This document shows positions 3,419 to 41,907 of a DNA stretch of 64,000 bases, one piece after another. Both the position numbers and the translations under genes were made by a program. Positions within the stretch are counted from its first letter, which is position 1, and the number at the start of each line of letters is the position of its first letter. Source of the stretch: Branchiostoma floridae (taxonomy: Eukaryota > Chordata > Leptocardii > Amphioxiformes > Branchiostomatidae); assembly GCF_000003815.2 (NCBI RefSeq), contig NC_049990.1, positions 16,278,200-16,342,199 of the forward strand. Reading direction: 5' to 3'. The notes beneath the pieces were generated by a model. That model worked only from the letters and a program-made list of their open reading frames with translations. It was not told the origin of the DNA and did not search any database.

Positions 3419-3470
3419 CCCATGTATGGTGATCATGGTTTTTAGTATTTTGGTATCCTCATTTTTTTCA

Positions 3471-5275: not shown

Positions 5276-6367
5276 TTACTCCAACTGAAGCTGTCCCAGG
5301 TCAGCAGGTACATTCTCTTCCAACTGTAACTGTCCCAGGTCAGCAGGTACATTCTCTTCCAACTGCAGCTGTCCCAGGTCATCCGGCACATTCCCTTCCA
5401 ACTGTAGCAGTCCCAGGTCATCGGACACACTTCCTTCCAACTGAAGCTGTCCCAGGTCACCTTGCATGACGCTTGGCATGTCGATGTGAGCATTATCCCC
5501 TGCTGTGATTAACACGTTCCCGTACACGATCGACTGTGGGACCGTGTTCCCAACAGCTCCTTGTTCCTCTTCCTCGTCGTCTCTTCCGCCATACAGGAGG
5601 TCATCGACGTCTTCTGAGAAGCCAAGGATGTCGTGATAGACGATGCCGTCCTCTGATTTGGCCTTGTCGATCTGATCCATGCTGTAGGAGTAGACTTCTT
5701 CTCTGTGTTCCCTCAGTGCACGAGCGCTGAGCACCCTCTCCTTTGTTTCAGTGCCTGGGCTGCATTCGTCGAGCTCGTTATTCAGGATGTTCTCTATCAG
5801 CTCGAGCATCTGTCGGCAGCTCGGCTTGTCGGCCTGCTCGCTCCGCACACAGATGTTGACCGCACGGCCGTCTGCAGAGAGCTTGATGAGGCTTTCCACG
5901 TTCCAGTCGAAACACTTGGCTCCGTCTCTCCACAGCAGTGGGGGGTTCTTCAGCTGCTTCATCAGGCGGGTCTGCACACGGGGAAAGAACCCGGAGGAGA
6001 ACATGTCGGTGGTGTCGGCACACCGGACTTGCTTGCCGAAGTACACGGTCTTGGCGGGGTATGCGGTCGGCTGCCACTTCTCTGGAGGCATGGACTGTGT
6101 CAGGAGCCCGGGGATGATGAACTCCTGTCCATCAAAGGTGTGGCAGAGCTGGAACTCTTGCAGCAGGGTGATCAGGAGATCAACATCGGTGGTGACGTCT
6201 TTGAACACTTTTTGGATCTCTTCTTTTGTGACGATACCAATACCCTCACTTCTTCTCAGATGGATGGGGAAGTTTGCTGGTGCCATCACTTTGCCAAAGA
6301 CATCCGTGCAGAGCCAGTTGGGTTCCAGGACAACAATGGGCTCAGTAGTTGAGGAAACAAAAAAGAT
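5276..6367 (-). CDS. Terminal exon of ROCO copy 1: COR end, acidic linker, LGQLQLE repeats
   Basis: A single 1092-nt exon (363 codons plus TAA), phase 0. It encodes the COR continuation (EPNWLCTDVFGKV), the ROCO/DAPK1 region with ARALREHREEVYSY, an acidic DDEEEE stretch, a short VYGNVLITAGDN segment and five LGQLQLE-type units of about 13 residues. The reverse-strand reading frames over this exon (5705-6352, 5751-6371) are shadows. Confidence 0.9.
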   Translation of the reverse strand: MFFVSSTTEPIVVLEPNWLCTDVFGKVMAPANFPIHLRRSEGIGIVTKEEIQKVFKDVTTDVDLLITLLQEFQLCHTFDGQEFIIPGLLTQSMPPEKWQPTAYPAKTVYFGKQVRCADTTDMFSSGFFPRVQTRLMKQLKNPPLLWRDGAKCFDWNVESLIKLSADGRAVNICVRSEQADKPSCRQMLELIENILNNELDECSPGTETKERVLSARALREHREEVYSYSMDQIDKAKSEDGIVYHDILGFSEDVDDLLYGGRDDEEEEQGAVGNTVPQSIVYGNVLITAGDNAHIDMPSVMQGDLGQLQLEGSVSDDLGLLQLEGNVPDDLGQLQLEENVPADLGQLQLEENVPADLGQLQLE

Positions 6368-9300
6368 CTGAAACAAAATGGAATAAAAACGTGTATGAGA
6401 CAAGTGCTGAATGACCTACATATAATATTTGCAGTATCATTATATATCATGAGATCAAAGTGCTTACGACACCAATGACTTCAAAATGTTCACCATGCTA
6501 GTTTTGTATATGATAATATGATATGATATATGATAAAATAGTTTTTTTTGCAAAATATATACACACTTCTGATGTTATTGTACATGTAACTTTATACAAT
6601 TATTCCTCCATCTCTTGATTGATGCTTTTAAGCAGTTAATGAGATAAAATGGTGACTATAAATGTCATGACATCACGATAAACATGAAAGTCGACTTGGA
6701 ACTTAACACTGTACGGCTTGAAAAGGCCGTTCTTTTGAGACAATTACAAGGCAAATATTGTAAAAATTTTGGTATGTAATCACAAAAATAAACTGTTTGC
6801 TCATCAACAATGTTTTCTCAAGCTGTGGTGCGAGATGCCGAGGTCGAAACGGCTCCGTGTTCGTTGCAACGATGTGACTCCATAAAAGGCATGTAGTCAA
6901 TGTTTGAATTTTTTTAATTTGTTTAATAACATCAGAAAGTGTGAATATTTTTAGTTTTACAAATTTGACTATTCTTTTTACATAAACTAAAAAAATATTG
7001 TATATTGGTGTCATAAACACTTTTTATATTTCAATGGTTTGATAATAACACCCATTTAATGGAATCATTATATCACAATCATTATATCATATCATATTCG
7101 TGTTCATGGGAATGGCAAAAAAGAAGTCTTATGTCACTTTGTCTTGCTACTTTTTAACCCTCAAACCACCGTATGGGGTCAAAACTGACCGCAGGCGTAT
7201 ATCGATGTGTGCCATTATGGCATTTCTGGTCGAAAACAAATTTCCTTCCATGAGTTTGTTTGTATATATGTCCTATAACTTCTTACACGTTTTTACCGAG
7301 ATTGGCTCATTGTTGATTAAGTTATCCTAGAAAGTTTATACATGGTCCAGTGGGGTCAAAACTGACCCCAGCATTTTTTTAAAACAAACTTTTGCGACCC
7401 ACACCTAAACTACTTATCGTAGGATTACGAAACTTTCAGAGAATGATGTACTTGTAAGCCAAAATTATTGTAATAACTTTTGTGCCATCATCATGTTATG
7501 TGACGACATTATGACGTCATCTAGGTAATCTCGGCCGCCATCTTGGATTTTGGCTGATGACGTCATCAAATTTGCATAAATTATGAATATTGAGTCATGA
7601 AATTTACGTTGAATTTCATAAGATGTGATAAACAACTGTTATTTGCTAAGAAAACCTTAGAACTCAAATGTTTAATACAAAATTAGAAAATTTCGTTATA
7701 AATATGTCTGTCAGAATTCCGTTGCCATGGCAACATGAAAAATGATGAACATACTTTGTTCACTAAAATTGTTTGCTTTCAACATTTTCTAAAAATCTAC
7801 CAAGTTCGGTGGCCCTAGCATAAGCCATTCTGGTGCTATACGGCATTGAAGTTGGTACAGGCATCAAAAACCTCCTTCCCGATCTGAATAGCATTGGTGC
7901 AAAACGTGGTCCTCGTGATTTTTTGCATAAATTATGATAATGAGCTAGAAGTATTCTCACCTAATCATGTCAAACTGTCCCACATAGATTAATGAAACTA
8001 TACATATATACAAATCACAAAAAGAGTCACACAAAAATCTGTATTGGTACAAAACGTTTGGGGTCAGTTTTGACCCCATACGGTAATCTACGTCACAAAA
8101 AAGCTACGGTGGTTTGAGGGTTAAATACTTTATAGTCATGAAAAATACGCTTGTAGTAGCGAATGTTTACCTCCCCAAGGTGATTCAGATACTGCGAAGA
8201 CGCCTTGAGAAAATCTTCTTCAGCCAAGCGGTCGATCTCCTTCACAGCCTCCTTGTACTCTGTCCATCTCAAAACGGGACACTTTGGGCTGCACCTCTCT
8301 TTGGTCCATTTGGGTAGACACTTGATGATTTCAGCACACAGTTTGGGTACGGCTCGCTGTTGGTATATGGTAAAAGTGGTATATGGTAAAAGTAAACATT
8401 CGTTCAATACAAGAAGTGATCAGACAGATGTATTCATCAGATAAAATAAAAGTGAGGAATAAAATCTACACAAATTATATTTTGCCACACGTTCTGCAAT
8501 ATCTTACCAATCTAGTCTGTCCAGTTAATATATAAGTGCAGTGTGGATGTTTAGCAAACATTTTTTTTCTCTAAATTGAAGATAAAATTTTGAAATTGGT
8601 AACTAGACGACATCACTCACTGTTAGAAGATGGGTCTTGAGTCTTGTCAAAAGATCTTTAAGGCGCCGAATGTCAGTTTTACGAGTCTTTCTGCAGTCAA
8701 GCAGGAACACTTCGTCTGAGATGTCCAGGTTATCATTGAACTCTGACGTCATCAGCTCAAGGAGGGACAATGCCTTTTGGTGTCCTACAATCAATAACAA
8801 GAGTTCGTAGACCTCAGGCCTGCATGAAATGTATTGGGTGTCTGTAGACCTATTGTGTATTTTTTTCCCTTTTTGTCCGTGTTTGCGTGGTTGGAAAATG
8901 TGCACCATGCAAAAGTCTGAAATTCTATTTTCGGAATGTGTAAGTTTGGGCATGGATGAACATTACTTATTTTGGATTTCTTAACCATGTAACCAACCAC
9001 AGTACCTTGAATTTGTTGAGACGACTTTTCCTACCTTTTTTTGTCTCAGATGGCCCTTGTAGTTATTCTGTCACATATGATATATTCAGTACTGATATCT
9101 TCCTATTTCAATGTACTGACCTAATGCAGCTGCTAAATCTCCTTAGTGTGGCAATGATATTCATTAAAGATTTATTTCTGGAGTGCTATAACACTTGACA
9201 CTGGAAGGTTATTTGCATAATTTGACCAATTAAGTTTTTACAGTAGTTCCATAGACAACATGAATAGTGGTAGCCCCCATCCAGCAGCAACAGTTAGTCC

Positions 9301-12300
9301 CCAGGGTGATATGATATTTTTATTCAACCATCCAACTAAAACCTAAACCTAAGTGACAAAATGCAACAAACGATACCAAATTTAAAATAGAACAAAGCTT
9401 CTATCACTGAACCATATATGTACTATAGATTAAGCAGGCCCAAAAATCAAGCAACCATGACTAGCCCCAAACTACAAATTACCTGCATACAATACGGAAA
9501 TGGCATCCCCAAAGAAACAACAAGAAACACAGGAAGATAATGATAATAATAATACATACCTTTCTCTTACACTCAAGCTCTATACATTTCTCCTCCACTT
9601 TAGAAAGTTGTATCTTCTTCTGATTGCCAAACAGGGTAAAGGAACTTGTACCAGAACTTTAAACTCTCAAAACACCACAAAGACTAAGAAGCAAACTCAA
9701 ATTGTACCTAACAGCAACAGATACTAGTACAAACTGAACTGAACCGTCATCTGGCTGGAAACACTGTTGATACAAAGTAACCTGATACATTGAAGGTGGC
9801 AGAAGCCAGTGCAAAAACAGATGACAATTCTACACCTAAGCTTAAAGACCTATCAATCAACCCAAACCCAACCAAACCAAGCAGATATTGCTTGCCAACA
9901 ATGCCCCAACCACACAAAAACAGGGTCAACCTACAGTATCAAGTTCAAGCACTAGGAGGCCCAAAATCAAACCTGACCACCAGGACACCAGCAACAACCC
10001 ACGTAACAAATAGCAACACGATGGCACCTTGCGTTCCGGAGATACAGCGCACGCACAGTGCCCGCACAAAAGGTAACCTGGAATGTCAAGTTCAAGCACC
10101 AAGGGCGCCAAAATCAAAATTGAGAATTATTCAGCCACCGCCAACACATGTGTCAAATATCATCGCGCCCGCACCAACCGTTCAGAAGATATAACTCCGG
10201 AAATACCCCTCCCGGACACAAAATTCGACCTGCCGCGTCAAGTTCAAACGCGACAAGGCCCAAAGTCAATCCTAGGCAACAGGCAACAACTTCCCACCCA
10301 TGCACCAAAAATCGTCGCAATGGCGCGTATCATTCCGGACACACAGCGCCAAAAGTGCCCCCAAAACACAAAAAATGCCACCTGCAATGTCAAGTTCAAG
10401 CGCCAGGAGGCCCAAAATCAAACCTGAGTGTCAGGCCACCACCCCCAACCCGCGTACCAAAAATCGTCATGCTCGCACCATCCATTCTCGAGATACAGCG
10501 CCCTAAATCCCCAGCTTCCAAATTTTCCCACGCCCGTGAAAACCATACCTGCATACATGCAGGTAATAACATATATTCAATAGATGAAAATTCTATAAAG
10601 CACAAACGCCATTGAGAGGACATCGGGCCATAAACCTATTAAATAGCTTCAAGCTAATGAAACAATGGATAGTTAGCAATGCTGCCTTTGAGTTTTTTGT
10701 ATTAGTATATGGCAGGAATAGGATATAAGGTAACAAACCTGCATCAGCCAGGTCCGCATGACTGGCCACGAGGATGACGTTAGGCTTGCTCTTTGTGTTG
10801 CAGGACTTGATGAAACACAGCCACCAGTGGACCTGTGAGTTATAATCAAAATCCGTTTAGATGTATTGAAACAGAATCATCTTAGTAATACAAATATGTA
10901 GAGGGTGCCTGTCTAGCTACCTTTTTCTCTAGCTACCTTTTTCTCTTGTGTGCGGATCATCCATGATGCTGTACAATACGACGAAGATGGTGTTCTCCGC
11001 ATTCATGAACATGCCGTGGGTGACCGCGTATTCCGACTGTCCAGCGAAGTCCCACACACTGACCTCCCCCACACTGGGAATGTTGGTTGTTCCCACATTC
11101 ACACCAGGGGTGGGCTCGTGTGGCTGATGGTCTGGTGTCATTCTATCCCGGAAGAAGGCGATGAAAGGTCCCTACATGAAGTTATGAAATGGATGGCAAA
11201 AAGGCTGTCAGTGCATTCCATAGAAGAAAGGTCAAGATTTCAAGAGAAGGTACGAGGGGCATTCAATAAGTAATGCCCCTGACCCACTTCCAGTTGTCTG
11301 ATCTAAATGGAATTTTGCATGTGTAATGAGTCATATGTCTATGGGTTATGTTGCAAAAAACAGCTCTGAACTAACTGTGGTTAATGATTTACTGGTGTTT
11401 GAACTGAGTCAGGTGTGAAATGGACCAGGTGTGAAATGGAGCATGTTGAGTGTCGCGCAGTGATCCGGTTTTTGTATTTGAAAGGACGCACACCAAAGGG
11501 GACTTTTGATGAAATGAAAAAAACTTATGGTGATGATGCCCCATCATATGACCTTGTAAAACGCTGGCATTCTGAATTCAAACAAGGTCGGAAGTCTGTG
11601 GAAACAGCTCCCAGACCTGGTCGTCCCTCTTCTGCCATTGATGAGGCATCTGTCGGAGGACCAACCTGGGATGTCCTACAAGAACGGTGTCCAGAGCTAC
11701 ATCAAATGATGGGAGAAATGCAAAACTCTGGGTGTTTCCTATGAAGAGAAAGACTAATAACTGTGCCAAGTTTCATTAATATCCTGCTATGGGAAATGGG
11801 TCAGGGGCATTACTTATTGAATGCCCCTCGTATACTGTTCTTACCGGTAGTTTGTACCACACCAGTAAAAACGGCAGCAATTCAAAACCTGTTATAGAAC
11901 TTTTTCTAGCTACATTGAAGCATGGAAATGATACGGTGGCGAAACAGCAATTGATAAGCCGAATTTTGAGAACGAGTATATTTCAAAGAGTAATATAAAG
12001 TAAATCTGTCTCCTGCACAATCAATATCTGATTTCCTTCGAGACAGAAAAGTTTAAATTGGAGAGGATTTCTAGCAACAAAAAGATGGTACCGTTTGCAG
12101 ACTTTCCTTGAGCGTAGATTTGCCAGCTTCCTGTGGTCCACAGATGCACAGTTTAAACCTGTCGACTTTCACCCCACCGGACTGTTTCATCAGCTTGTGG
12201 TAGGAAACCTCTGTGGCCAGGTTCTGGATGTTCAATGTAAACGCTTAACTTTCGTCATCTTAAGATGCAGTCTTTCTGTACGGAGGCTTTGCCTGAATTT

Positions 12301-15300
12301 ATAAGTTTTGCCTAGCTTTATCTTAAAGTTTTCAATAATGCATAATCAAAATATCCAACTATTTTTTTTTTCATAATCGCGAATCAAAAACCTTTATCGT
12401 GATGACAAAATGTAACAGTGTGCAGTAGGCTCTTAAATGTACCCACGGTTGACTCCGGGAAAAGACTATGGTATACTTTCTATCAAAATTCATTTCATTG
12501 AAAGCCTTTGCTTACCTTAAGGAAACGTCTGCGGTCTTGGTCATGTAGGTGGTCCAGTGGTTTTGTCCCATCCTGTGTACGTGTACGAGGATAATTCATC
12601 GTAGTTGTATACAACGTTTTCATTTCCATTTCGTTTAGCTGCTCATAAAAGAAGCTTTTTTTCATTTCCTTTTTTTGCTGCTCATAAAATGTGAATATAT
12701 ACATACATGTGCATACATATACATATATGTTTACATATATATGTAATTCTGCTTAATATTTCGGTGATCAAGTGATTGCGATTTTTAGCGGTTGAATAGC
12801 AATCTTTGAAATTAAGTTACGATAACATATCAACACTTTACTGGTCACTATTCGACTGCCAAAATCGCAATTATTTGATTGATACAATGCTAACAGGTAT
12901 TCTAATCTGACAGAAATTTCTGGAGTAGTGAGTCTATCTTTTCGCACTTAAGGGCTCTGTTTGCGCCGTGAATTTCTCCCGCTTTTCAGTAAACCTTATC
13001 TTTAACAGGATATAAATCTGTCATTTGTCACTTCTATAAGTTACACATTTATAGACAATTCTCGAAGGTAGTACAAATATTCCTGCTAACTTTAAATTTG
13101 TCCCTTGTCATAGCTAACTAACTAGCCTAAGTCGACAGATCAGGGAACTAGACTAGTAAAAATTTCTTAACAATCATTAATTGTCCCTTTATTCTTACTA
13201 TTCTTACTGATTTTCTTTGCTGACCTTGTCTTTCGCCTCCACATCAGCGCCAAGTTGAATCAGCAGCTTCACCATCTCAGTGTTCCCGTTAATGCTGGCC
13301 ACATGGAGTGCGGTCCAGCCATGCTGAGTGAACAGACGGAGAAACAAATGAAGCCGTTTTGTATGTCTACGGATCCAAAAAGACCCCCGGGGATAGAAAG
13401 CTATAATGACTGTCCATCATTGTAAATAACAAACTTAAACAGAAAAGGTAATTGTCAACTGTTACTTCTATACGATACATTGATATAATGGTCGAAGGTA
13501 GTAAAAATATTTCTACGTACTACGTTTTCAACCGCCGTCATCTAGAACATTCTTAGACTCGTAAACATTTCTAAACAGTCATTGTCTGTCCCTTCTTTCT
13601 CACTAATAGAGATAATTTTCTGTATTAACCTTATCTTTCGCCTCCACATCAGCGCCAAGTTGAATCAGCAGCTTCACCACCTCAGTGTGTCCTTTCCTGC
13701 TGGCCCTATGGAGTGCGGTCTCGCCAGCCTGAGTGAACAGACGGAGGAACAAATGAAACCGTTTTGTAAATTGGCGGATTCAAACAGACCCCCAAGTATA
13801 GCAGGCCATAATGACTTTCGTCATTGTAAAACCTAAACTTACACAGAAAATATAATTTTCAATTCTCACTTCTTTACGATACATTAGTATGATTGTCAAA
13901 GATAGTAGAGATACTACTACTAACTTGAAATTTAACCACTGTCATGGCTAATGGACCTAAGCCAAGAGATCAGGAGACATTCGAAGACTAGTAAACATTG
14001 CCCAGCAATCATTTATTGTCCATTTATTCTGACTCATCATCATCGTGGGCTGACTAAATGAGATGATTTTCTGTACTTACCTTGTCCTTCGCCTCCACAT
14101 TAGTGCCGAGTTGAACCAGCAGCTTCACCACCTCAGTGTTCCCTTTCATGCTGGCCAAATGGAGTGCGGTCCTGCCAGTCTGAGTGAACAGGTGGAGAAG
14201 CAAATGAAGCCGTTTTGTAAATCGGCGGATTCAAATAGTCCTCCAAGGACAGCATAACGTTATTAATGTCCATCATTGTAGAACCTAAAGTTTTACAGGA
14301 AATATAACTTTCAGTCACTTTAAAATACATAGTTATAACTTTGGGATGTATTACAAATATTCCTATTGAAACTGAACCACGGCCTGTCATTGCTTGTTTG
14401 TATGGATGGCGTCCTACTGGAACCCTAAAACTGATGAAATCGTGAGAATAAAAAATGTTTTGCCAAAAAAGTTTCCCTTTTTATATATTTTTATGTAAGT
14501 GGTCATGACTGTTTAACAAATGAGTAAACACACAGAATATGGTACATACCAAACAATGGTCTTCATTTCACATCTTCTTTTTGGACATCTAAGATAACTT
14601 TCTTGGCATCCTAAGGCATTACTTTTCATTTCGTATCTATTTTCCAACATTTTGTTTCAGTCTAAGGCATATATATGCTCATTTTGCAGCTGCTATGTAT
14701 GGTTTACAGAATGGTTGTAAGCTTTCTTTCTTTGGAAACATCCGAAAATTGAATGGATGTCATCCATATAATCAAGTCAACATGGCCTTATGAGCACAAG
14801 CAGGAGGTCAAAAACATTCTAAGACTAGTAGATATTTCCCAACAATCATTAATTGAAAATTCTATTAATAGCCTGTACTACACTTTATGATGATATGCAA
14901 TCCTTTACTCCACACAGATAGATATGGTTAATGCAATCGCACGACACATATGTACATGCACTAGCATACAGAGCTCGAGTGGAAACTGGAAACACTGTGC
15001 ATTCCAATTGGAATTTCATGAATCGGACACCTAATAACAAGGTTTTGGAGTGGGAATGCTTGAATCTCTACTCGCTGAAAAAAATCATGTGATGCCAATG
15101 ACAAATCTGCATATGGAGTACGAACAAGCAAAGTGATATAAGAAGGGATAGAAACGCCAACCTCCCAGATCCTAAACACACATAAGCTGTAGTTACCCTT
15201 ACCACTGTCGACCTCTGATTGACGTCCCTCCCAGCCTGAAGACCCCTCCTCACGGTCTGCACGTCACCTTTTCGCACAGCATCCCAAAACTCGGCCTCGT

Positions 15301-15304: not shown

Positions 15305-16586
15305 GGCAGGTCGTTACTCCTGATACCTGTTATTAAGATGTATAAATACTTAAACTGCTGGCATTTGTGGTTATGTATTTTTTCACAAATATTGATTGCA
15401 CAAAAAGAAGGTTTAGTCCCCATAATTCCACTTGCAATGAGTTAACATTAACCTTTGCACCCACATTTTAAGTTACACGATGTTTGTTATACTGATGACA
15501 GTGGCTAATGGAGTTTGGGAGTTAGAAACGTCATGAATATTGATGTTCAAACCATCAAGATATTTGGCGATTTCATATCAACACCAACTGTTACATCAAA
15601 TAGAACTTTAAAAATATGTTCATTATAGGTGTCTGTGGAATTGAAAATAATCAATCAATCAAAATATCTTTGAAAGATTAAAAAGGTTTTCCCATTACAC
15701 AGTCACTCCTCTCGGTGCTGAATAAAAGAGTCTACAATATAAAAAGAATAAACAGATGGCCAGTGCTCTAGTGCATTGTGTACTTTATTTCGACTTATTT
15801 TCACAAACCATTCAACTTTGCCAAATATTCCTTTATTGTACAGATAAACTCACAACTTAGTATTCTTTTCCACAGACCGTGCATACTTCGAACAGAACAA
15901 CGATGTATTGGTGCAACCCACCGTTGGTTTGTAACCTATAGATTGGCTGCAGTGTATGTTATATATACGTGACCGGATACAGTTAACGCGAGCTGAACTT
16001 TGATCAGTCCGAGTTTCAACTGGGCATTTGATTTGTTGTCCCTCGAAAGCTACGGGAGACGGCATTCTTAACATGTATCGTATATATTAAGCGAAGCTTC
16101 CTGGTCAGAAAGTACCGATCAAACTTTTCTCATAAGTTGTCATTGCAGTATATTCAACCTTGTCGCGAAAGGTCCATACATATTTGTCTCACTACCACAC
16201 TGCATTTGTGCTAGTATTTGCAATTAGGTTACTGTGACGGAACAGATTGTCGATTAGGGTCCCCTTACAACACCTTCCCTCACATAACAGCTATGTTTAC
16301 ATCGCACATCGCAATCTTATTAACGCTCAATTTGCTTTTGTTAACCTATTGAACGATGAATCAGGCTGAGCCTTAACAAACACAGTAGTATCCAAGCACT
16401 ATAATTTATAAAAGTAAATGGCATTTGCGCCTACTTCGATGTTGGCTCTTCAAGGGATTGTGTGTGGTTGGTTGAAAACAACATTAGACGTGGTTATATT
16501 AGTTTGAATGTTGCACATTTATAGATTCAAATCTATCTTAACATAACGTCTCATGCATCTCTAACAATAAACACAATAAAACTTAC

Positions 16587-16680
16587 CTGTACTTGTACCT
16601 GTTCCTTTTGTCTACCCGAAGGAAAACATGATCTCAAACCTCCAGCCACTCGCAGCTAGTACCGTACCCAAAATGGCGGT
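16587..16680 (-). promoter_or_regulatory. Non-coding first exon and YY1-type promoter motif, ROCO copy 1
   Basis: A GTAAGT donor follows position 16587 on the minus strand. The exon block from the donor up to AAAATGGCGG (16670-16679, a YY1-type core) is conserved in copy 2 at 35564-35656 while surrounding intron has drifted. The coding start in the next exon (acceptor before 15326, ATG at 15304) is shared by both copies. This looks like a 5'UTR exon and TSS region; no RNA data are available. Confidence 0.6.
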
Positions 16681-16729
16681 GTCGTAAAGTTCCGCTTTTT
16701 AGTTAATGAATAACCAATGACGTCGTTAA

Positions 16730-16972
16730 GGCCCCCTTTCCACTAGACGGCGATCGCGCTGCGCTCTCACTGCGACCTACATATGATATGTGTAACCTTC
16801 GCTTTCACACTGGGTTTATCATACAAATCGTAAAAGTGTGACTGAGAAGACAACAAAACACACAAAGTGTGAAAAGATTCGTTTCTTTTCTATAAAATTC
16901 GTTGAGCGGTCTTTTAAATTTTAGGTCGCAGAGAGAGCGCGGTGAGAGCGCCGTCCTAGTGGAAAGGGGGTA
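16730..16972. mobile_element. Short TIR MITE upstream of ROCO copy 1
   Basis: CCCCCTTTCCACTAG at the left and CTAGTGGAAAGGGGG at the right, followed inward by GGCG...GCGCTCTCACTGCGACCT and its imperfect complement. It interrupts sequence homologous to 35690-35770 upstream of copy 2. I could not define the target duplication. Confidence 0.75.
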
Positions 16973-18760
16973 TAACGAGGTTGACTGGTCAGGGTTCGCA
17001 TACGAGTTCTTCGCCATCAGGTCCGAGATTGCGTCATAAAAATTACGCTCAAAGATGGCTTTACACCGTCTAGCTTTAGCTTTCATCAATTGAAATCGAT
17101 TGGGAAGGCATTTACGCCTTGAGATGTTCGAAGATAGGGATAAATTTTGTTCTTGGTACAAGATATTGTTCCATGAATATAATCATTATTGTTGTGTTGT
17201 ATACCAGGTAAACCGCCTGGCGTAACACATTAAGTTTGTTCTCAATAGTGCAAGCTGCATAATCGGACAGATTAAGTGATCAGCTCACACCGGGAAGGTC
17301 CCCTACACCACTTTTGCATAAGTGTTGTTGGTTCTTGAGCTGTATCTCTCTTAAAACACGGGACCTCCATTTAATGTCGTATCCGAAGGACGTCCCTAAC
17401 ACTCTGGTCAATTACGGCATGTGACACGGTTCTAGTTAGTTGAAAACACGCGTATCCTTCTAACTTTTTAACGCATGGTCGTATTGTAACGAAACTTCAT
17501 ACAGAGTTAGTACCATGTGATACATATGAAATGCACATGTAATCTCAATTGATGCACTGTAATTTAGGGTTAGAAATAACGATTTTGGTTACTGTTGATT
17601 CGTTGATGTATGGATTCCCCAGCGGGGACACGGAATATATCCTTGATTTTTTTACTAGATAAGAGTTTATTTATAATGGAAATAATCTGTCCAAGGGTAT
17701 TTTGGATTATGAAACGAAATGGAGTTAATTTTGGGGCAAAAACATCAAAAACAAAGATTTTTCCAAAAATATCATAATTTTAAGTTCAAATACCCTTGGA
17801 TAATATTTATCTGCAAGCTATAATGCTAATAAAATAACCACATCTATCAATTTTACAATTTTGACCGGGGAAATAGCATTTAAAGCTAATAAACACGTCC
17901 CGCTTTCAGCTCGGTTCTCTCAGTCCCCGTGTTCACGCCATTTCACTCTCTGGTGGGTCGGAACGCGTTCGGAAGGTACCATTATGCTGCTTTCGCGGGG
18001 GTGCCTTTTTCGTTATATGTTCATATTTGACCAAAGAGCTTTTATCAGCTCTTTTATCAGCTTTTAAAAGCTCCTTGATTTGACAAACACTTGGCCGTTA
18101 TTTATAACGGGTGCCATTCAAAAGACTTCCCATAATGAATTTTTGTGTGCCATAGGTTGTAACTTCCTTTTCTTTTAAAAATCCAATGCAGATTTGTATG
18201 TAAATTGACTATTCTGACGGCTCACGTTTCCTTGTGGTTACGCGCGGTCACTGGTTCGTCCGACCCGATTTTGCGGCTACATGTGGTCCGTTTTGATGTA
18301 TTTTTATCGTACTTAGCCAAGCGACAGTTGTAGATGTTTATATACACATTATAATGATGTTAATGACTATCCAATAACAAGCTTAAGTTCTTCAAAAAGA
18401 AAGGTTTATGGTCAGGATACGAATCAGAATTCCAGTCGCTGTGGGTGATCGACAAAGGTACTGATCTGTATACTGGACTTGCGATGTCAACCCGTCACAT
18501 GTCTCATAACAAGGGAGAGGCGTTTATTCATCAACACTTTATTGTCCCCACTTATAAACTGTATGTAAACATTGAAAATCGCCAGCACTTAGTTTCACGT
18601 TCCATCAAATAGCAAATTCTTGTTTAAGTCTACCGCCAGGTAGGACCGTCCAAATGCCATATTCATGTTTGATAGAAACTCACATGCCGTAATTGACCCG
18701 AGCAGAAGCTAAGAACACATTCACACAAGAGTGCAGTAAAGAAAGTCGTGTAGAGTGCTT
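16973..18760. other. Intergenic; no gene recognised
   Basis: The first ~80 bp match the copy 2 upstream flank (35700-35770). The rest shows no credible exon. A CCAAGGGTATTT / AAATACCCTTGG inverted pair (about 17690-17805) suggests a small decayed MITE. Confidence 0.5.
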
Positions 18761-18769
18761 TTTCCAAGG

Positions 18770-18862
18770 GCTAAAGGTCGGCGGTATGTCAACGGATTTG
18801 AACCCAAGACCACTGGGTTACGGGCCAGCTAAACACCCAGCCGTTACACCAAACGACTCCAC
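18770..18862 (-). mobile_element. tRNA-derived SINE head
   Basis: On the minus strand it reads GTTTGGTGTAACGGC (A-box-like) and, about 45 nt later, GGTTCAAATCC (B box). The arms do not give a clean cloverleaf or a CCA-proximal acceptor, so a SINE or tRNA relic is more likely than a working tRNA. Confidence 0.5.
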
Positions 18863-20029
18863 TTGATTATGCTTGACTTGAAGCGCGTTTGAAGCTTAAG
18901 GTATCGGACCGGAGTTTCTTTTACGGAGGTTGGCGGACAGCTTCAGGCTGAAGGGCTACAGTTCCGCTAGGAAACGTAGGACGGGAAACTTAATCAATAT
19001 GGTGGAAATCCGTTTACTGCCTCTTTCCGACAAAGCTATTGGTATCGTCTGCTGCCTCTTTTTTTTTGGGTAGAATATGTAGTAAAATTTCAATTTTGGA
19101 CCCGAAAAGTATCATTTTTAAACCCTTTTTTGATCGAAGCTGCTTGGAAAAAACTAATTTTCCCAGGATAACGGCCTACGTGGCAGAGAAGCTAAATTCT
19201 TCATGCTTGTGTAAAATGAAAATAAATAAAAATTCGATGTGATAACTTTTTTGCAATCTTCGATAACGTAATTTCATCGAAATTGCATGAAAAAAAGTTG
19301 CTATTTGGGTCATCAGGCGAAAAAAATGCATCACCGTTACAGTGGACTAATACAAAAATCGTTTCGCTGGCCAACCAAATACTCCTCGCACAAAAATAAT
19401 ACAACCCACGGGCTTTTCAGGAAATACGACAAAACTATGATCAGCTATAACGATCACCAAGCAATAGGGAGCAAAAGATAGGGAGAAAACAGCGCACTTC
19501 CGGCCTATTACATCACCCTTCCGTCAACTCCGGTCAGATTTGAACTCTGACCCGGAACCTTAAGCTTGAAATGTAGAGCAGTCTAAGATGGTCAAAACGA
19601 CCAGGAAATCACAATAGTTAGGCGTCAAAAAAATTTGATCACTCGTGCTTTTTTTTTCCAAACACAATCATACAGAATTGAAGAACGAAAGGAAAGACTA
19701 GAGAGGTCCACCTGGTGCAATCATTACCTGTTTATGTTGCAAAAATCTGTTTAATATGCAAGGCGTACATTTGCGACAAAATAGTTTTCCGAAATGAATA
19801 TTCTTGGACATTAATATCCATTGTAGGACATTATTATCCATTCCACGACATTTTTGCAGCTCACTTTGCAGTTTTTGGCGACGCCTCAGGGGCAAGCCAA
19901 ATGGTATATATTATGTTCAGTCTGCAAAAATTCTAGGAATTGCACAGGCATGTTTCCACAGGCATGCTAGGCATGTTTCCACAGCCTCAATGAATGTGAA
20001 ATGGAATTTGGGTCATGTTCCAGGAAGCT

Positions 20030-20845: not shown

Positions 20846-20879
20846 AGAACTTTGGCAGGACAAGGAGTGTAATGCAACT

Positions 20880-22725: not shown

Positions 22726-22729
22726 TACA

Positions 22730-22825
22730 AGTTTTATGTTGTTCAAATTCACTGTTCAAATGTATGTACTGAATAAAAGTTTTATGTTGTTCAAATTCAC
22801 TGTTCAAATGTATGTACTGAATAAA
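22730..22825. repeat. 48-bp perfect tandem duplication
   Basis: Two identical 48-bp units (22730-22777 and 22778-22825) each end in GAATAAA. The identity implies a recent duplication. Confidence 0.92.
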
Positions 22826-22927
22826 AGATGTATGTTTTAGAAAAGAATTTGTCGTTCCTACTCATCTGGAAACTCTACTCTACTCTAATCTACTCTTAAA
22901 TGGGTCAGTGTGGGTAGGCTATATGAT

Positions 22928-23118
22928 AATAGGGGTTAATGACCCACCTGTTCCTCGGTATATATGGTGTCATNNNNNNNNNNNNNNNNNNNNNNNNNNN
23001 NNNNNNNNNNNNNNNNNNNNNNNNNNNNNNNNNNNNNNNNNNNNNNNNNNNNNNNNNNNNNNNNNNNNNNNNNNNNNNNNNNNNNCACCTCGGGGCGGGT
23101 CATTAACCCTTAATTATT
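22928..23118. mobile_element. TIR element interrupted by an assembly gap
   Basis: AGGGGTTAATGACCCACC on the left and GGCGGGTCATTAACCCTT on the right are inverted. The 112 N at 22974-23085 lie between them. A foldable MITE would explain why assembly failed here. Confidence 0.6.
22974..23085. other. Assembly gap (112 N)
   Basis: A run of N, inside a probable inverted-repeat element. Confidence 1.
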
Positions 23119-23194
23119 AAAAGGTTTTACAGTCAGGCCAAATCTGCAAATAACAAAATTGAACTATATTCATAGGGTGTTTTCGCAAAATGCA

Positions 23195-23350
23195 GTAAAG
23201 TGTTTCCAACTACATTGGTGAGACGCTTCCAACTACATTCATAAGGTTTTTCCAACTACATTCATATGGTGTTTCCAACTACATTTTGTACATCCATACG
23301 TTGTTTTCAAGTACATGCAAAAGGTGCTTCTAACATTTATAAAGTGCTTC
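23195..23350. repeat. Minisatellite, about 24-bp unit
   Basis: TTTCCAACTACATT recurs at about 23-26-bp spacing (about 23202, 23228, 23250 and 23273), then decays rightward. Confidence 0.7.
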
Positions 23351-24196
23351 CGCAAATTAAGACCAAGTGCATTTTATTAGATGCAGGCGTTATAATTTGT
23401 AATTGTGGAGTAGTCACAGATGCTTGAGGCAATGTCTACAGGTACACACAGTATTACTTTGACAAAACTATGTTCGTCCGTACATTGTTGCTGTTATATT
23501 GAGCTGGGTAATCGTGCAAATGGCAAAATGGTAAAGTATGATTGTTAAAACTGTGACATTTTCTTGCAAAGGATGCATTTTCATTGTCAGGAATTCATGA
23601 GACGGAATTCATGCCATTAATAATGTATTTCGTTCTAGTTAGTTCTGGTTATTATCATCACATTCTTAGAAACTATCTGCTGTCTGAAAATCTTAAATCA
23701 TGAATATGACCAAAAGTGCCCCCACCAAGCATGGGGAGGAATAAATCTTACATCAATATTCGGAATCATTGTTGATTGACAGGTGTTGCTCAGCCAATGA
23801 AAAATGTGTAGACAGCACATGTACTGCGATTAGACATTCAAAACAAATTAAACAGCATTTGTCCAGCAAAGCCATCACCTCCCTAACTGTCTCATACCAT
23901 GGGAAGATCTTCCGAGCTACTCTAAGGTACAATGTCCTGTGAATTCAGTTCTGCAAAATCTATACATGTTGATTACTGCACCGTAAACTGCGGTGACAAC
24001 TATGGGGCCAAAATAAATTGCTGTTCAACAGGCGTGTTTGGTGTTCAAAGCAACGAACAAATGTCCTTTCTAATCTGTACTTGTCGCGGATCATCAGGTA
24101 CATTTTTGGTTACAACCAAAGTCATTCCATGTAACCAAGGCCATTTCTTTTTAACTTAATGATGGCTGCCATGGGACCCAGGTCATCAGACTAATT

Positions 24197-25254
24197 TTAC
24201 TCCAACTGTAGCTGTCCCAGGTCAGCAGGCACATTCTCTTCCAACTGTAGCTGTCCCGGGTCAGCAGGCACATTCTCTTCCAACTGTAGCTGTCCCAGGT
24301 CATCGGGCAAACTTCCTTCCAACTGAAGTTGTCCCAGGTCACCTTGCATGACGCTTGGCATGTCGATGTGAGCATGGTCACCTGCTCTCAAAAACACGTT
24401 ACCACTCCCGTACACAATCGTCTGTTTGATCGTGTTTCCAGCGGCTCCTTGCTCCTCTTCATCGTCGTCTCTTCCACCATAAAGGAGGTCATCGACGTCT
24501 TCTGAGAAGCCAAGGATGTCGTGATGGACGATGCCGTCCTCTGCTTTAGCCTTGTCGATCTGATCCATGCTGTAGGAGTAGACTTCTTCTCTGTGTTCCC
24601 TCAGTGCACGAGCGCTGAGCACCCTCTCCTCTGTAGTGGTACCTGGGCTGCACTCGTCGAGCTCGTTGGTCAGGATGTTCTCTATCAGCTCGAGCATCTG
24701 TCGGCAGCTCGGCTTGTCGGCCTGCTCGCTCCTCACACAGATGTTGACCGCACGGCCGTCTGGAGAGAGCTTGATGAGACTTTCCACGTTACAGTCGAAA
24801 CACTTGGCTCCGTCTCTCCACAGCAGCGGGCGATTCTTCAGCTGCCTCATCAGGCGAGTCTGCACACGGGGAAAGAACCCGGAGGAGNNNNNNNNNNNNN
24901 NNNNNNNNNNNNNNNNNNNNNNNNNNNNNNNNNNNNNNNNNNNNNNNNNNNNNNNNNNNNNNNNNNNNNNNNNNNNNNNNNNNNNNNNNNNNNNNNNNNN
25001 NNNNNNNNNNNNNNNNNNNNNNNNNNNNNNNNNNNNNNNNNNNNNNNNNNNNNNNNNNNNNNNNNNNNNNNNNNNNNNNNNNNNNNNNNNNNNNNNNNNN
25101 NNNNNNNNNNNNNNNNNNNNNNNNNNNNNNNNNNNNNNNNNNNNNNNNNNNNNNNNNNNNNNNNNNNNNNNNNNNNNNNNNNNNNNNNNATCCGTGCAGA
25201 GCCAGTTGGGTTCAGGACAACAATGGGCTCAGCAGTTGAGGAGACAAGCAAGAT
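24197..25254 (-). CDS. Terminal exon of ROCO copy 2, with gap
   Basis: It encodes the COR end, the ALREHREEV region, an acidic linker, a segment reading IVYGSGNVF, and four LGQLQLE units, ending in TAA at the same place as copy 1. N at 24888-25189 hides about 100 codons. A 1-nt deletion near 25213 lies at the gap edge and may be an assembly artefact. Confidence 0.85.
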
Positions 25255-28200
25255 CTGTAACAATAAGAAAGGGAAATTTGTACGCGACAAGTGGTGAATG
25301 GCATTCATGTAACATTTGCAGTATTATGAATATAGCATAGTTAGTTCGTGTAATAACATTGACATTTGCACAATATATACACACTTCTGAACATATAACT
25401 GTATATAATAATCCCTCGAAAGGCAATGAGATTAAACGGTGACTATAAATGTCATTACGTCAGGATGAGCTTAACAGCCGACTTAGAACTTTGCAACATA
25501 CGGCTTAAAAAGAATGTTATTTTTAGACAATTTCAACGCAAATATGGTAATATCTTTGGAATGGCAAAAGCAAAAATTGATGCGTTTTGCCTTGCTATTT
25601 TTCTATACTTTACTGTCATGAACAGTGCATTTGTATTAGTAATAGCACGTCCATGGCAAATGCTTCACCAAGGGCTGATTGCAAATAACAGCAAAAAGAA
25701 TAACAAAAAAGTGTATAAGCTATTGTTAACCTCCCCAAGGTGATTCAGATACTGCGAAGACGCCTTTAAAAAATCTTCTTCAGCCAGACTGTCGATCCCC
25801 ATCATCTCCATCACAGCCTCCTTGTACTCTGTCCATCTCAGAACGGGGCACTTAGGGCTGCACTTCTCCTTGGTCCATTTGGGTAGACACTTGATGATTT
25901 CAGCACACAGTTTGGGTATGGCTCGCTGATGCTATATAAGAAAAGTAAACATTGATTCAATACAATAAGTGATCAGGCAGATGTATTACCAAGATACCAT
26001 GGAATTGAGCTGTTACATCTACACAAATCACGTTCTGCATGCACTATACATCTTGTAAATCTAGTTTTTTGTCTAGAATCTTTAAGTGTTGTAGGAATGT
26101 TAACTGAATTTTTTAAAACATAAGTACTAGTGTAGATGAAATGTTGAAATTTGCATCAAATATTGCAACTAGACGACAATACTCACTGTTACAAGTTGGG
26201 TTTTTAGGCTTGTCAAAAGGTCTTTAAGACGCCGCATGTCAGTTTGACGAGTCTTTCTGCAGTCAAGTAGGAACACTTCGTCTGAGATGTCTAGGTGATC
26301 CTTGAACTCTGATGTCATCAGCTCAAGAATGGAAGATGCCTTTTGATGTCCTACAAGAAACAATAATACATCGAGTAGATGAAATTGATATGAAAGACAA
26401 ATGTTATTGAAAGTGCTTCTCACCATAAGAACTCTAAACCAGATTTAAAGCGACTTTGATTAAGTTTACTGATACAGACGTGGTTGTACATGTAAGTACA
26501 TTACAGAACGTAACAAACCTGCATCAGCCAGGTCAGCATGACTGGCCACGAGGATGACGTTAGGTTTACTCTTTGTGTTGCAGGACTTGATGAAACACAG
26601 CCACCAGTGGACCTGTGAGTTATAATAAAAATCATTTTAGATGAATTAAAACAGAATCATCTAAGTAATACACCTATGCAGAGGATGTCTTTTTCGTCAC
26701 CTTTTTCTCTTGTGTACGGATATCATCCATGATGCTGTACATTACAACGAAGATTGTGTTCTCTGCATTCATGAACATGCTGTGGGTTACTGCGTACTCC
26801 GACTGTCCAGCGAAGTCCCACACACTGACCTCCCCCACACCGGGAATGTTGGTTGTTCCCACATTCACACCAGGGGTGGGCTCGTGTGGCTGATGGTCTG
26901 GTGTCATTCGGTCCCGGAAAAAGGCTGTGAGAGGTCCCTACATGAAATTATAAAATAGATGGCAAAAACATTGTCAGTGCATTCTATAGAAAAAAGGTGA
27001 AGATGCCAAGAGATGGTACCGCTCTTAGCGGTATTTCGTACCACAACAGTAACCATGTTACCCATTCAAACCTGCTATAGAAATTTTTAGCAACATTGAA
27101 GCATGGGAATGATATAGTAGCAAATTGATGAGCAATTGATGAGCAGAATCATGCATTTGTTGCAGATATGCATGTGTATATTTATTTCTAAGAGTTATAT
27201 ATAATAAATCTGTCTCCTGCACAATCGATATCTGATTTCCATCGAAAAGGCAGAAACGTTTAGATTGGAAAGGATTTCTAGCAACGAAAAGATCGTACCG
27301 TTTGCAGACTTTCCTTCAGCGTAGATTTGCCAGCCTCCTGTGGTCCACAGATGCACAGTTTAAACCTGTCGACTTTCACCCCACCGGACTGTTTCATCAG
27401 TTTGTGGTAGGAAACCTCTGTGGCCAGGTTCTGGATGGTCAATGCAAACGCTTAACTTTCGTCATCCGAAAATGCAGTCTGTGCCTAAATTTAGTTTCTG
27501 CCTCGCTTTACTTTAAATTTATAACAACGCAAAATCAAAATATGCACCTATTTGTTTGTAATCGCAAATCGGATAACTTCATTGTGATGACACAAGGTAA
27601 AAGTGGTGCAGTGGGCTCTTAAATGTAAATACTGTTAACTCCGTGAAAAAGGCAATAGTAAACGTTCTATCAAAATTGTATGAAAGCCTTTGCTTACCTT
27701 CAGGAATCGTCTGCGGTCTTGGTCATGTACCCAGTCCAGTGGTGTTGCCCCATCCTGTGTATGTGTACGTGAATAATTCATTGGAGTTTTATACATGTCC
27801 AATGTTTTCATTTCCGTATTTTTAATTTACTGTCCGTAAAAGAAATCTAAAATCCTGGTCAAATGCCTATGCATGTGTATCTGTAACCTTACTTAACTCT
27901 AGGTTATATATACATGTATAAATGTTAATTTGTTTCATATTGTTAACTGTCGGTAACTTTAGCGGTGGGAGAAGACAGTAGCTCATTGCATTCTGTAACG
28001 GTGTTAATAAACATCACTGTCTCAAATGTTGACTGATAAAATAATAGCGATTGTAGTAGTGAATAGCGATCTTTAAAATCAAGTTACCGATAACATATCA
28101 ATACTTCAATCATGATTTGTTGACGGTAACCTAATGTTAGCGACTTAACTGCTCACTATTCGACTGCAAAAATCGCAATTACTTGATTGATATAATGCTA

Positions 28201-31200
28201 AAAGGTATTCTAATCTGTCAGAAATTGCTAGAATAGTGTGTATATCTATTCCGTATTCGCACTCTGTTTGCGCCGTGTATTTCTCCCGCTTTTCAGTAAA
28301 CCTTAACTTTAACAGGATATAAATCTATCAATTGTCACTTCTATAAGCTATACATGTATAGACAATTTTAGAAGGTAGTACTGGAAACTTTAAATTCAAC
28401 CCTTGTCATGGCTAACTAACTAGCCTAAGCCGAGAGATCAGGGAACTAGACTAGTAAACATTTCTTAACAATCATTAATTGTCCCTTTATTCTTATTATT
28501 CTTACTGATTTTCTGTGCTGACCTTGTCTTTCGCCTCCACATCAGCGCCGAGTTGAATCAGCAGCTTCACCATCTCAGTGTTCCCCTTCACGCTGGCCAC
28601 ATGGAGTGCGGTCCTGCCATCCTGAGTGAAGAGACGGAGGAACAAATAAAGCCGTTTTGTATATCTACGGATCCAAAAAGACCCCCGGGGATAGAAGGCT
28701 ATAATGATTGTCCATCGTTGAAAAACCCAAACTTAAACAGAAAATATAATCGTCAATTGTTACTTCTATATGATAAATTGATATAATGGTCGAAGGTAGT
28801 AAAATATTACTACGTACAATGTATTCAACCGCTGTCATCGGGGAGTATTCTAAGACTAGCAAACATTTCTAAACTATCATTATCTGTCCCTTCATTCTCT
28901 CTAAATGAGATGATTTTCTGTATTTACCATGTTTTTCGCCTCCACATTAGCGCCTAATTGAATCAGCAGCTTCACCGTCTCAGTGTTCCCTTTCATGCTG
29001 GCCCAATGGAGTGCGGTCCAGCCATCCTGAGTGAAGAGACGGAGGAACAAACGAAGCCGTTTTGTGAGCCGCCGGATTAAAATAAACAAACGAGGATAGC
29101 AGGCAATAGTGACTGTGCATCATTGTAAAACCTAACTTTAACAAAAAATATAATTTTCAATTGTCACTTCTATACGATACATTAATATGTTTGTTGAAGG
29201 TAGTACAAATATTCCTACTAACTTGAAATACAACCCTTGTCATTTGCCTATTGGGTCTATGGCTAATGAGTCTAAGCCAAGAGATCGGGAAATATTGTTA
29301 GACCAGTAAACATTTCGCAACAATTTTTAATTGCCCCTTTATTCTGACTAAATGAGATGATTTTCGGTATTTACCTTGTCCTTCGCCTCCACATTAGCTC
29401 CGAGTTGAACCAGCAGCTTCACCATCTCAGTGTTCCCATTACTGCTGGCCAAATGGAGTGGGGTCTCGCCATACTGAGTGAACAGGTGCAGAAGCAAATG
29501 AAGCCGTTTTGTAAATAGGCGGATTCCAACTGATGCCGCAAGGACAGCAAAACGTTATGATTGTCCATTATTGTTACACCAAAACTTTGTATGGAAATAT
29601 AACTTCAAGTAGGCAGTTCTATTAGATACGATTTTCGAAGGTAGTACACATATTACTACTTTAAAGTCAACCCCATGTCATGGCTAATGGACTTAAGCTA
29701 AGAGATCAGGGAACATTCTAAGAATAGTAAGCATTCTCAAAAATCATTAATTGTCCCTTTATTCTGACCATATGAGATGATTTTCTATACTTACCTTGTT
29801 CCTCGCCTCTACATCAGCACCGAATGGAATCAGCAGCTTCGCCGTCTCAGTGTTCCCGTTCCTGCTGGCCACATGGAGTGCGGTCCTGCCACCCTGAGTG
29901 AACAGACGGAGAAACAAACGAAGACGTTTAGTGAGCCGCCGGATTCAAATAAACAAACGAGGATAGCAGGCAATAATGACTGTCTATCATTGTAAAACCT
30001 AAACTTTAACGAAAAATATAATTTTCAATTGTAACTTCTATACGATATATTAATATGTTTGTTGAAGGTAGTGCAAACATTCCTACTAACTTGAAATACA
30101 ACCCTTGTCATTTGCCTATTGGTCTATGGCTAATGAGTCTAAGCCAAGAGATCGGGGAAAAAAGGAGTCGAACCCAATAACCCAGGATCTAGAGTTAGCT
30201 TTTACTAGTTTTAGACTAGAGTAGACACTTGTGATATTGTATTTTAGACTTGTTGAATCTTGTATGTTACCTGCAATTAGCCCACGGGCAAGAATTTGCA
30301 ATAAAACTTGAATATTCTAAGACCAGTAAACTTTTCGCAACAATTTTTTATTTCCCATTTATCTTGACTAAATTAGATGATTTTCTGTATTTACGCTATC
30401 CTTCGCCTCCACATTAGCTCCGAGTTGAACCAGCAACTTCACCATCTCAGTTTTCCCGTTCCTGCTGGCCCTATGGAGTGGGGTCCAGCCACCCTGAGTG
30501 AACAGGTGGAGAAGCAAATGAAGCCGTTTTGTAAATCGGCGGATTTGAACAGACCTCCAAGGACAGCATAACGTTATAGCTGCCCATCATTGTAGAGTCT
30601 AAAATTTTACAGGAAATATAACTTTCAGTCACTTTAAGATACATAGTTATAACTTTGGAATGTACCACAAATATTCCTACTGAAACTGGACCCCTGTCAT
30701 GGCTTAGGCCATGTTGATTTGATTATATGGATGACATCCTATTGGAATCCTAAAACTGATGCGAGCGTGCGAATAAAAAATGTTTGGCCAAAAAAGCTTA
30801 AGTTTCCATCTTTATGAAATGTAAGTGGTCATGACTGTTTAACAAATGAGTAAACACACGTACAGAATATGCTATATACCAAACAATGCTCTTCATTTCA
30901 CATCTTCTTGTTGACATCTAAAATGACAATTTTGGCATCCTATGACATTATTTTTCTTTCGTATTTGTTTTCCTACATTTTTGTAGTCTAAGGCATATAC
31001 AGTCAAACCTGTCCGAGCGACCACCTCTTCTCAGCGACCACATTAAGCGACCTTTTCTCAACGACCACCTGGCCAACGCGACCGCGACCAGCCCGAATTG
31101 GGACCCATAACGACCGCATTATTTTCAAAATTGAGGCTTTCATCGACTTTTGATGATAACCAGCGCAATTTTGTGCCGAAATCGTTGTAAGAAAATCCGA

Positions 31201-34235: not shown

Positions 34236-35563
34236 GGCAGGTCGTTACTCCCGACACCTGTTATCAAAAATATAAATACTTAAACTGCTTATATTACATG
34301 TGTGCTTATTACTTTTTTCACAAATACTGACTGCACAAAAAGAAGATTTAATCCCCATGATTCATCTGCAATGAGCTAACCTTAACCTTGGTACTCTCCT
34401 TTAAAGTATACGATGTTTGTTGTTCTTATAACAGTGGTGAATAGAGTTTGAAACGTCTTAAACATTGATGTTCCAACCATCCAGATACTTTTGTCGATTT
34501 TATATTGATCAACACCTACTGTTATACCAAGTAGAAATCTTAGAAATAGGTTTAGTTTAAAATTGAAATTGATCAATCAATCAAAAAGACCTTAAAAAGA
34601 GTAAAATGCGTCAGTCCCACTACATTCCTATCGATTCTGATTACAAAGAGTCAAAGATTAGATAAATAAACAGAGACCAAGCTCCCTGGTAAATTGTGTA
34701 ATTTATTTCATCTTATTTTCACAAATACTTCAAGATGAAAAGAAATCCTTTCTCAGATTGAACTTTCCCAAGTATTCCTTCATTGTATAGATAAACTCTC
34801 CCTCAATGTCTTTTCCTCTGACCTCGTAAACTATAAACATAACAATGATGCATTGGTGCGACCCAGCGTTGGTTTGTTATATATAGAATAACTGCAGTGC
34901 ATGTTATACATACGTGACCGGATACAGTTAGCGCGACGTGTACTTTGATCAGTCCGAGTTTCAACTGAGCATTTGATTGTTTGTCACTCGAGAGCTACGG
35001 AGCAAGGCATTGTAAACATGTAAGGTGCATAAGCGAGGCTTCCTGGCCGGAAAGGCTTCGATCACCTTTACTCATAAGTTGTCATGGCAGTATTTTCAAC
35101 CTTGTCAAGAAGGATCCATTCATATTCGTCTTACTAACACACTGCATTTGTACTAGGATTTTCAATTAGGTTACTGTGACAGAACACATTGTAGATACGG
35201 GTTTCCTTCTAACACCTTCCCTTACATGACAGCATGGTATGTTTACACTACACGTCGACAATTGTAACACTCAATTTGCTTTTGTAAACCTATAGAATGA
35301 TGAATGTGACTGAGCCTTAACAAACGCAATGGGTATTCGAGTACATTGCAGCACACTATTTACAGCTTTTGTGAAACGTATTGACTACGATAGTAAATGA
35401 CCTTTGCGCCTGCACAGTTGTCGGTTTGCTAGTGGTTGAGAACAACATAAGAAGTGGCTGTATTTGTTTCACTGAGTATATTCACTGACTATATTCACTG
35501 AGTTTCACTGAGTATATTCAAATCTATCCTAACAACCGCATGCATCTCTAATAATAGACTCAC

Positions 35564-35656
35564 CTGTACCTGTACCTGTTCTTTCGTCTACCCGAAGGAA
35601 AACATGATGATCTCAAACCACCAGTCACTCGCATGCACCTTTCTCAAAATGGCGGT
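35564..35656 (-). promoter_or_regulatory. Non-coding first exon and YY1-type motif, ROCO copy 2
   Basis: The GTGAGT donor, repeated CTGTACCTGTAC block and AAAATGGCGG (35646-35655) align with copy 1 (16587-16680). Conservation between paralogues supports a 5'UTR exon with a promoter beside it. Confidence 0.6.
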
Positions 35657-36610: not shown

Positions 36611-36619
36611 ATAGTCTTT

Positions 36620-37440: not shown

Positions 37441-37469
37441 TTTGTCAATGTCCCGTATTTTCCGCCTTA

Positions 37470-41905: not shown

Positions 41906-41907
41906 TA

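Follow-up and report, generated by a model that had tools for sequence, protein, structure and literature searches.

Two paralogous ankyrin-Roc-COR genes, A and B, lie on the minus strand of the window analysed here, a 64,000-nucleotide stretch of the Branchiostoma floridae genome (C12:16278200-16342199, within a 513-Mb genome), where they occupy positions 5276-34235. Each of their ankyrin repeats is a single 99-bp phase-0 exon, these exons are under diversifying selection, and the genes belong to a large family in which their own clade lacks the C-terminal CARDs of its sisters. We consider it fairly probable that this large ankyrin-Roc-COR family joins a diversifying recognition N-terminus to a conserved switch, with the tail of this clade replacing a CARD. 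The pattern suggests a rapidly evolving recognition system inside cells; by analogy, its best reading is an animal ROCO family that may act like intracellular immune receptors, paralleling the leucine-rich repeat (LRR) ROCO proteins of brown algae and the ankyrin NLRs of fungi. A previous sequence-only reading of this DNA had centred on the absence of kinase and death domains, but the array of ankyrin exons is the more interesting feature.

Gene A (11 exons) runs from a start codon at 15304 to a stop ending at 5276, and gene B (13 exons) from 34235 to 24197. The earlier description of two paralogues with matching exon phases and 18.9-kb spacing is borne out: the start codons are 18,931 bp apart, AG/GT is found at every internal exon boundary, and the common exons are matched in phase except at a break in A described below. 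Also as described, the proteins begin with MDEAEFWDAV and MDEYEFLSAV and end in an acidic linker and a 13-residue repeat tail. The end assigned to the pair, 35656, has to be corrected, being past the start codon of B; the duplication extends to about 35692, with no exon seen there. In both genes, a start exon is followed by ankyrin exons (three in A versus five in B), a linker exon, three Roc exons, two COR exons and a long last exon, which encodes COR-B, the acidic linker and the repeat tail, the latter from a 39-bp tandem repeat.

Across ten genes, namely A, B and eight relatives, 34 ankyrin exons were collected, all of 99 bp with AG/GT ends and two to five per gene, the 99-nt frame having been preset in both scans (30 exons and 4 exons). 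A, C12a, C12b, C333a, C16a and C16b have three each, B and C333c five, C16c four and C333d two; the counts for five relatives are lower bounds, because a start exon was found in three of the eight. The exons share a near-identical framework (xGxTALHxASxxGNTExVKLL) with variable residues at positions 1, 3, 8, 11 and 12, and 33 distinct five-residue signatures occur among the 34 exons when each kind is counted once. Codon 1 encodes ten amino acids and codon 8 seven, both with an invariant third base. Among the 24 nearer exons, the pairwise difference at codons 1, 3, 8 and 11 is 0.549 for first and second bases and 0.078 for third bases, compared with 0.257 in flanking intron columns and 0.116 at the first and second bases of other codons, so that the hypervariable codons exceed introns (p 0.00021); the window's eight exons alone give 0.58 against 0.21-0.25 in introns. 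General hypermutation of the ankyrin exons is ruled out, since the third bases of the hypervariable codons hardly vary. Positions 1, 3, 11, 12, 31 and 33, which we take to be those randomised in DARPin design, were fixed beforehand, and codon 8 was picked after inspection. The preset positions are more variable than random sets of positions in the eight exons (p 0.0008), and in all 34 exons just 1 of 20,000 random sets equalled or surpassed them.

Site models support the same conclusion. We compared M1a with M2a by a custom script rather than PAML, using naive posteriors and a tree from introns, and twice the log-likelihood difference (2dL) was 22.8 for the window's eight exons (p 1.1e-5), 72.0 for 24 exons (p 2.3e-16) and 108.3 for 34 exons (p 3.1e-24), with an omega of 5.5 to 7.1 in the selected class. 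Codons 1, 3, 8 and 11 reach a posterior of at least 0.99 in all three exon sets, and codon 12 reaches 0.93 and 1.0 in the two larger ones. The signal survives other trees (star tree, 82.1; exon-derived tree, 45.4). A control on Roc and COR, comprising 206 codons of the ten genes, gave a 2dL of 0.00 and an omega of 0.293, ruling out selection throughout the genes.

Ankyrin, Roc (PF08477; 44.4 and 47.9 bits, cut-off 27) and COR-B (PF25497; 37.2 and 34.1 bits) are above the Pfam cut-off in both A and B. COR-A (PF16095) is above its cut-off in A only (47 bits), because a gap of 302 N cuts the COR-A of B; in the protein scan this gap was entered as 9 X rather than 302 bases. For a chimeric A/B query, the solved structures closest in sequence in the PDB were LRRK2 (7.8e-10) and 3dpu (6.9e-8), listed as a ‘Rab family protein’, which we take to be the bacterial Roco. 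A, B and all eight relatives have an intact P-loop GPQEAGKST and DFAGQ, with SHAD as their G4 motif, the P-loop thus being retained in 10/10 genes. Neither NACHT nor NB-ARC was matched by Pfam in A or B; their switch is Roc-COR.

The absence of a kinase and a death domain withstood a search of the proteins and of 24.1 kb of flanking coding strand, within limited sensitivity. Pfam gave no death domain in the A and B proteins, and no protein kinase, Death or CARD match was obtained on the coding strand at E<=0.1 in 15308-24196 (8.9 kb, upstream of A and downstream of B) and 34239-44200 (10.0 kb, upstream of B), or at E<=10 in 1-5275 (5.3 kb downstream of A). Applied to gene B itself as a control, the method recovered ankyrin and COR-B above cut-off, placed Roc at 25.5 against a cut-off of 27 and missed COR-A, so a kinase cut into small exons could escape; the negative is a good one without being absolute. 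A profile of the CARDs at four sister loci likewise had no match in the window's open segments of at least 30 residues on either strand.

The window's genes are part of a large family, which we surveyed in one genome, the window's own. There are at least 84 COR-A matches, and the last exon of A, used as a query, has at least 60 matches, some of them fragments. Fourteen are close, at 80-100% identity (five on C12, four each on C333 and C16, one on C10), and the remainder comprise 24 at 60-68% (C5 and C6), one at 47% (C14), 16 at 39-42% and five short pieces. In a tree for which 28 genome loci were supplied and 12 left out (L026, L029, L035, L041, L045-L048 and L052-L055), the 11 of 14 close loci that were entered fall together on one side of a branch with 100/100 support; L031, L033, L036, L037 and L039 are absent from this tree, the row for window gene B is shorter, and one long row, L051, serves as the only outgroup. 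The six rows with a CARD are not gathered in a single group, and one C5 row adjoins the tail clade (90/71).

A CARD was found within about 1.5 kb of the match at 12 of the 16 sister loci on C5 and C6 versus none of the 14 close loci, using a profile built from four of the twelve loci later found, some of the C6 loci being near-copies. Pfam confirmed one or two CARD copies in all four sister loci tested. Among the 39-42% matches, a CARD exon adjoins the last exon in all four that were fetched, confirmed by Pfam in the one tested. One CARD-type gene on C6 likewise possesses a similar start exon and three AG/GT-bounded ankyrin exons of 99 bp. The C14 relative (L051/L058, C14:17891500-17903600) is an ankyrin-Roc-COR gene ending in a Death domain; ankyrin and Roc were matched in the 9.8 kb that precede its last exon, and no kinase was. 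By parsimony, we infer that a C-terminal CARD was ancestral among these genes and was lost in the window's clade.

These data partly support the interpretation of the sequence-only reading, which had proposed a lineage-specific, scaffold-type ROCO subfamily with a different output module; for the lineage-specific part, the test covered this one genome. A distinct subfamily without kinase or death fold stands, on the strength of the 100/100 branch and the distribution of CARDs; the different output module also holds, by way of the loss of a death-fold module, because CARDs occur in most sister loci and in none of the close ones. The scaffold-type label is less apt, as the repeat exons speak more for a recognition protein. 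Unremarked in that reading were the frame breaks, the family's size, its CARD-bearing sisters and the selection on ankyrin exons.

Several observations concern the tails and individual loci of this clade. In L021, L023, L024, L025, L026, L031 and L042, the motif IVxGxxNxx follows the acidic linker, with a spacing that resembles that of RHIM. An RHIM-like amyloid output was nevertheless rejected: the pattern, chosen post hoc, fits 7/14 clade tails, but Pfam RHIM (PF12721) matched none of the seven tails tested, being absent from those of A and B at E<=10 and from the last exons of L029, L023, L025, L027 and L056 at E<=1, in searches whose HMMER filters can lose so short a motif. The predicted structure of the last exon, from a two-row alignment, had a mean predicted local distance difference test score of 35.2, too poor for a fold search. 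The clade member L029 (C10:3702479) has a tail with a long run of further VGQPEMEEDAPA-type repeats, and the C333 scaffold, 129,534 bp in length, holds four clade loci. At C12:16253475 the match covers residue 59 onwards, and residues 1-76, with a stop, are found on a separate piece at a distance of 1.6 kb.

How might such a protein work? According to our model, the ankyrin exons multiply in tandem and diversify at residues on the predicted ligand-contacting face, and because it is these residues that diversify, the N-terminus most likely recognises varying partners. Partner binding would then move the conserved Roc-COR switch to another nucleotide or dimer state, which in the sister genes would expose the C-terminal CARDs and lead to signalling by CARD recruitment. 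In the tail clade, the CARD would have been lost, with the acidic 13-residue repeat tail in its stead; such a protein, having this tail and no CARD, probably serves as a scaffold for multivalent docking, or regulates CARD paralogues by pairing with them through COR. The fuller proposal of an NLR-like receptor system built on a ROCO switch, in which ankyrin cassettes multiply, shuffle and diversify and are coupled to CARDs or to an acidic repeat output, is one to which we give somewhat less than even chances, alternative splicing perhaps acting as an added diversifier of the cassettes.

As assembled, neither A nor B encodes an unbroken product. The second Roc exon has 235 nt in A versus 237 nt in B and all eight relatives, so the spliced frame of A breaks, and in B the frame of the last exon is lost next to the N gap; these breaks fit both recent damage and assembly error. 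The last exons of the eight relatives all differ in length from that of A by a multiple of three, C333c having an early stop in the tail despite this in-phase length, and in C16c the second COR exon could not be placed cleanly. A and B could be ordinary tandem duplicates becoming pseudogenes, in which relaxed constraint explains the ankyrin variation, and the split match at C12:16253475 and the early tail stop of C333c suggest damage at other clade loci too. We consider this unlikely. Outside the ankyrin exons and tail, the ratio of nonsynonymous to synonymous substitution rates between A and B is 0.255 over 501 codons (bootstrap 0.17-0.36), which argues against old decay, C333d is in frame across all eight searched exons, and replacement changes at the four hypervariable codons exceed the intron level while third bases are nearly invariant.

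Two further explanations keep the genes functional but assign them other roles. DAPK1 itself carries ankyrin repeats, and the family could be a DAPK1-type housekeeping scaffold minus the kinase and death domain, its ankyrin variation reflecting adaptation to fixed partners; the conserved Roc-COR and the C14 relative that combines Roc-COR with Death are in keeping with this. It is nonetheless the least probable of the alternatives, as at least 60 matches per genome, 14 of them close, and 33 faces in 34 exons are unlike a fixed-partner scaffold. Somewhat improbable, though deserving more weight, is that the CARD-less clade acts as a decoy or inhibitor, pairing with CARD paralogues and blocking them. 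The presence of CARDs at 12 of 16 sister loci and none of the 14 clade loci, together with the COR module common to both groups, would favour such a role, but A and B have conserved tails (omega 0.07 for 47 codons, an estimate from only 9 changes), suggesting a tail function of its own.

Besides the broken frames, several results weigh against diversifying recognition as we propose it. Codon 8 is outside the preset list, and in all 34 exons, where the pooled introns include the diverged C16 genes, the preset positions are not above introns (p 0.17) and the five variable codons are so only weakly (p 0.026). The site test assumes a tree, and gene conversion between repeats breaks that assumption, which is why the star-tree and intron checks were made. 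A per-site test is weaker than M2a, reaching p<0.05 at codons 1, 3 and 11 in 24 exons, at 1, 3, 8 and 12 in 34, and only at codon 1 in eight. M2a also calls codons 17 and 24, plus 33 in the largest set, codon 24 being conserved by the per-site test, and a residual 2dL of 13.2 (p 0.0014) persists without codons 1, 3, 8, 11 and 12. Finally, C333 may be an alternative haplotype of another cluster.

Table 1 Exons and tail repeats of genes A and B (window positions).
Feature	Position	Strand
Gene A exon E1, start codon and first ankyrin-like helices	15203..15304	-
Gene A ankyrin exon 1, 99 bp, phase 0	14081..14179	-
Gene A ankyrin exon 2, 99 bp, phase 0	13630..13728	-
Gene A ankyrin exon 3, 99 bp, phase 0	13225..13323	-
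Gene A linker exon, partial ankyrin end	12516..12572	-
Gene A Roc exon 1, P-loop GPQEAGKST	12092..12223	-
Gene A Roc exon 2, DFAGQ; 235 nt, frame broken	10937..11171	-
Gene A Roc exon 3, SHAD (G4)	10739..10832	-
Gene A COR exon 1	8621..8784	-
Gene A COR exon 2	8171..8356	-
Gene A last exon: remaining COR-A, COR-B, acidic linker, 13-residue repeat tail, stop	5276..6367	-
Gene B exon E1, start codon	34137..34235	-
Gene B ankyrin exon 1	30395..30493	-
Gene B ankyrin exon 2	29795..29893	-
Gene B ankyrin exon 3	29375..29473	-
Gene B ankyrin exon 4	28928..29026	-
Gene B ankyrin exon 5	28523..28621	-
Gene B linker exon	27698..27754	-
Gene B Roc exon 1 (P-loop)	27299..27430	-
Gene B Roc exon 2	26701..26937	-
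Gene B Roc exon 3	26519..26612	-
Gene B COR exon 1	26187..26350	-
Gene B COR exon 2	25731..25931	-
Gene B last exon: COR, acidic linker, repeat tail; N gap 24888-25189 and adjoining frame break	24197..25254	-
39-bp tandem repeat coding the 13-residue tail of A, continuing past the stop	5244..5459	.
39-bp tandem repeat coding the tail of B	24201..24341	.

Elsewhere in the window, the intron between Roc exons 1 and 2 of gene A holds a Mariner-type element at 11403-11741 (+), with a Mos1 transposase helix-turn-helix (PF17906, E 2.4e-9); the aligned intron of B is without about 11254-11832 of A. Between the genes lies a 37-bp minisatellite (20657-20839, 4.9 copies, 98% matches). A 374-codon open frame at 48499-49623 (-) resembles, by its motif, a non-LTR retrotransposon reverse transcriptase, and those at 37473-38601 (-) and 3071-3415 (+) recall a methyltransferase and a HAD phosphatase, although neither is matched by Pfam at 0.001.

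ROCO proteins have been studied mainly through LRRK2 and DAPK1. The comparisons that follow draw on excerpts of the cited papers. One review divides ROCO proteins into LRR, LRR-kinase and DAPK1 groups (PMC6337361), and the ankyrin-Roc-COR-tail architecture is outside all three as defined there. DAPK1, of group 3, resembles A and B in having Roc-COR without LRR, but its Roc-COR is preceded by a kinase and its C-terminus is a death domain, and neither of these was found in A or B; MFHAS1 similarly combines Roc-COR with the lack of a kinase, but its repeats are LRRs, not ankyrin (PMC6337361). An ankyrin-Roc-COR family is not described in the titles and abstract openings of the open PubMed Central papers listed, nor in the excerpts of the papers cited here, PMC9334734 and PMC9573974 among them, and the Branchiostoma expansions in the excerpt of PMC8195603 are of TRADD-N, not ROCO.

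Prokaryotic AP-GTPase (ROCO) conflict systems, called DAP kinase homologues, likewise pair fast-evolving N-terminal repeats and Roc-COR with an exchangeable C-terminal effector, but their repeats are LRRs and their effectors bacterial, unlike those of A and B (PMC8195603). Fungal NLRs share with A and B near-identical ankyrin repeats, variation in repeat number (a polymorphism in the fungal genes) and positive selection, which in fungi falls mostly on the concave face (PMC4986451); their switch, however, is a NACHT or NB-ARC ATPase, not Roc-COR, and the excerpt of that paper makes no mention of single-exon repeats.

The brown-algal LRR-ROCO genes, proposed immune receptors, encode one LRR per 72-bp phase-2 exon, with shuffling and diversifying selection (PMC11378527). 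The amphioxus family resembles them in its ROCO switch, in having one phase-locked exon per repeat and in its many genes, and it also has the variation in repeat-exon number and the diversifying selection on repeats that mark the algal type. It differs in its 99-bp phase-0 ankyrin exons, the algal genes having LRR-ROC-COR as their sole architecture, and in its CARD-bearing sisters and animal host (PMC11378527). If our reading is correct, the proposal, made for brown algae and bacteria, that Roc-COR acts generally as a ligand-gated immune switch would become directly testable.

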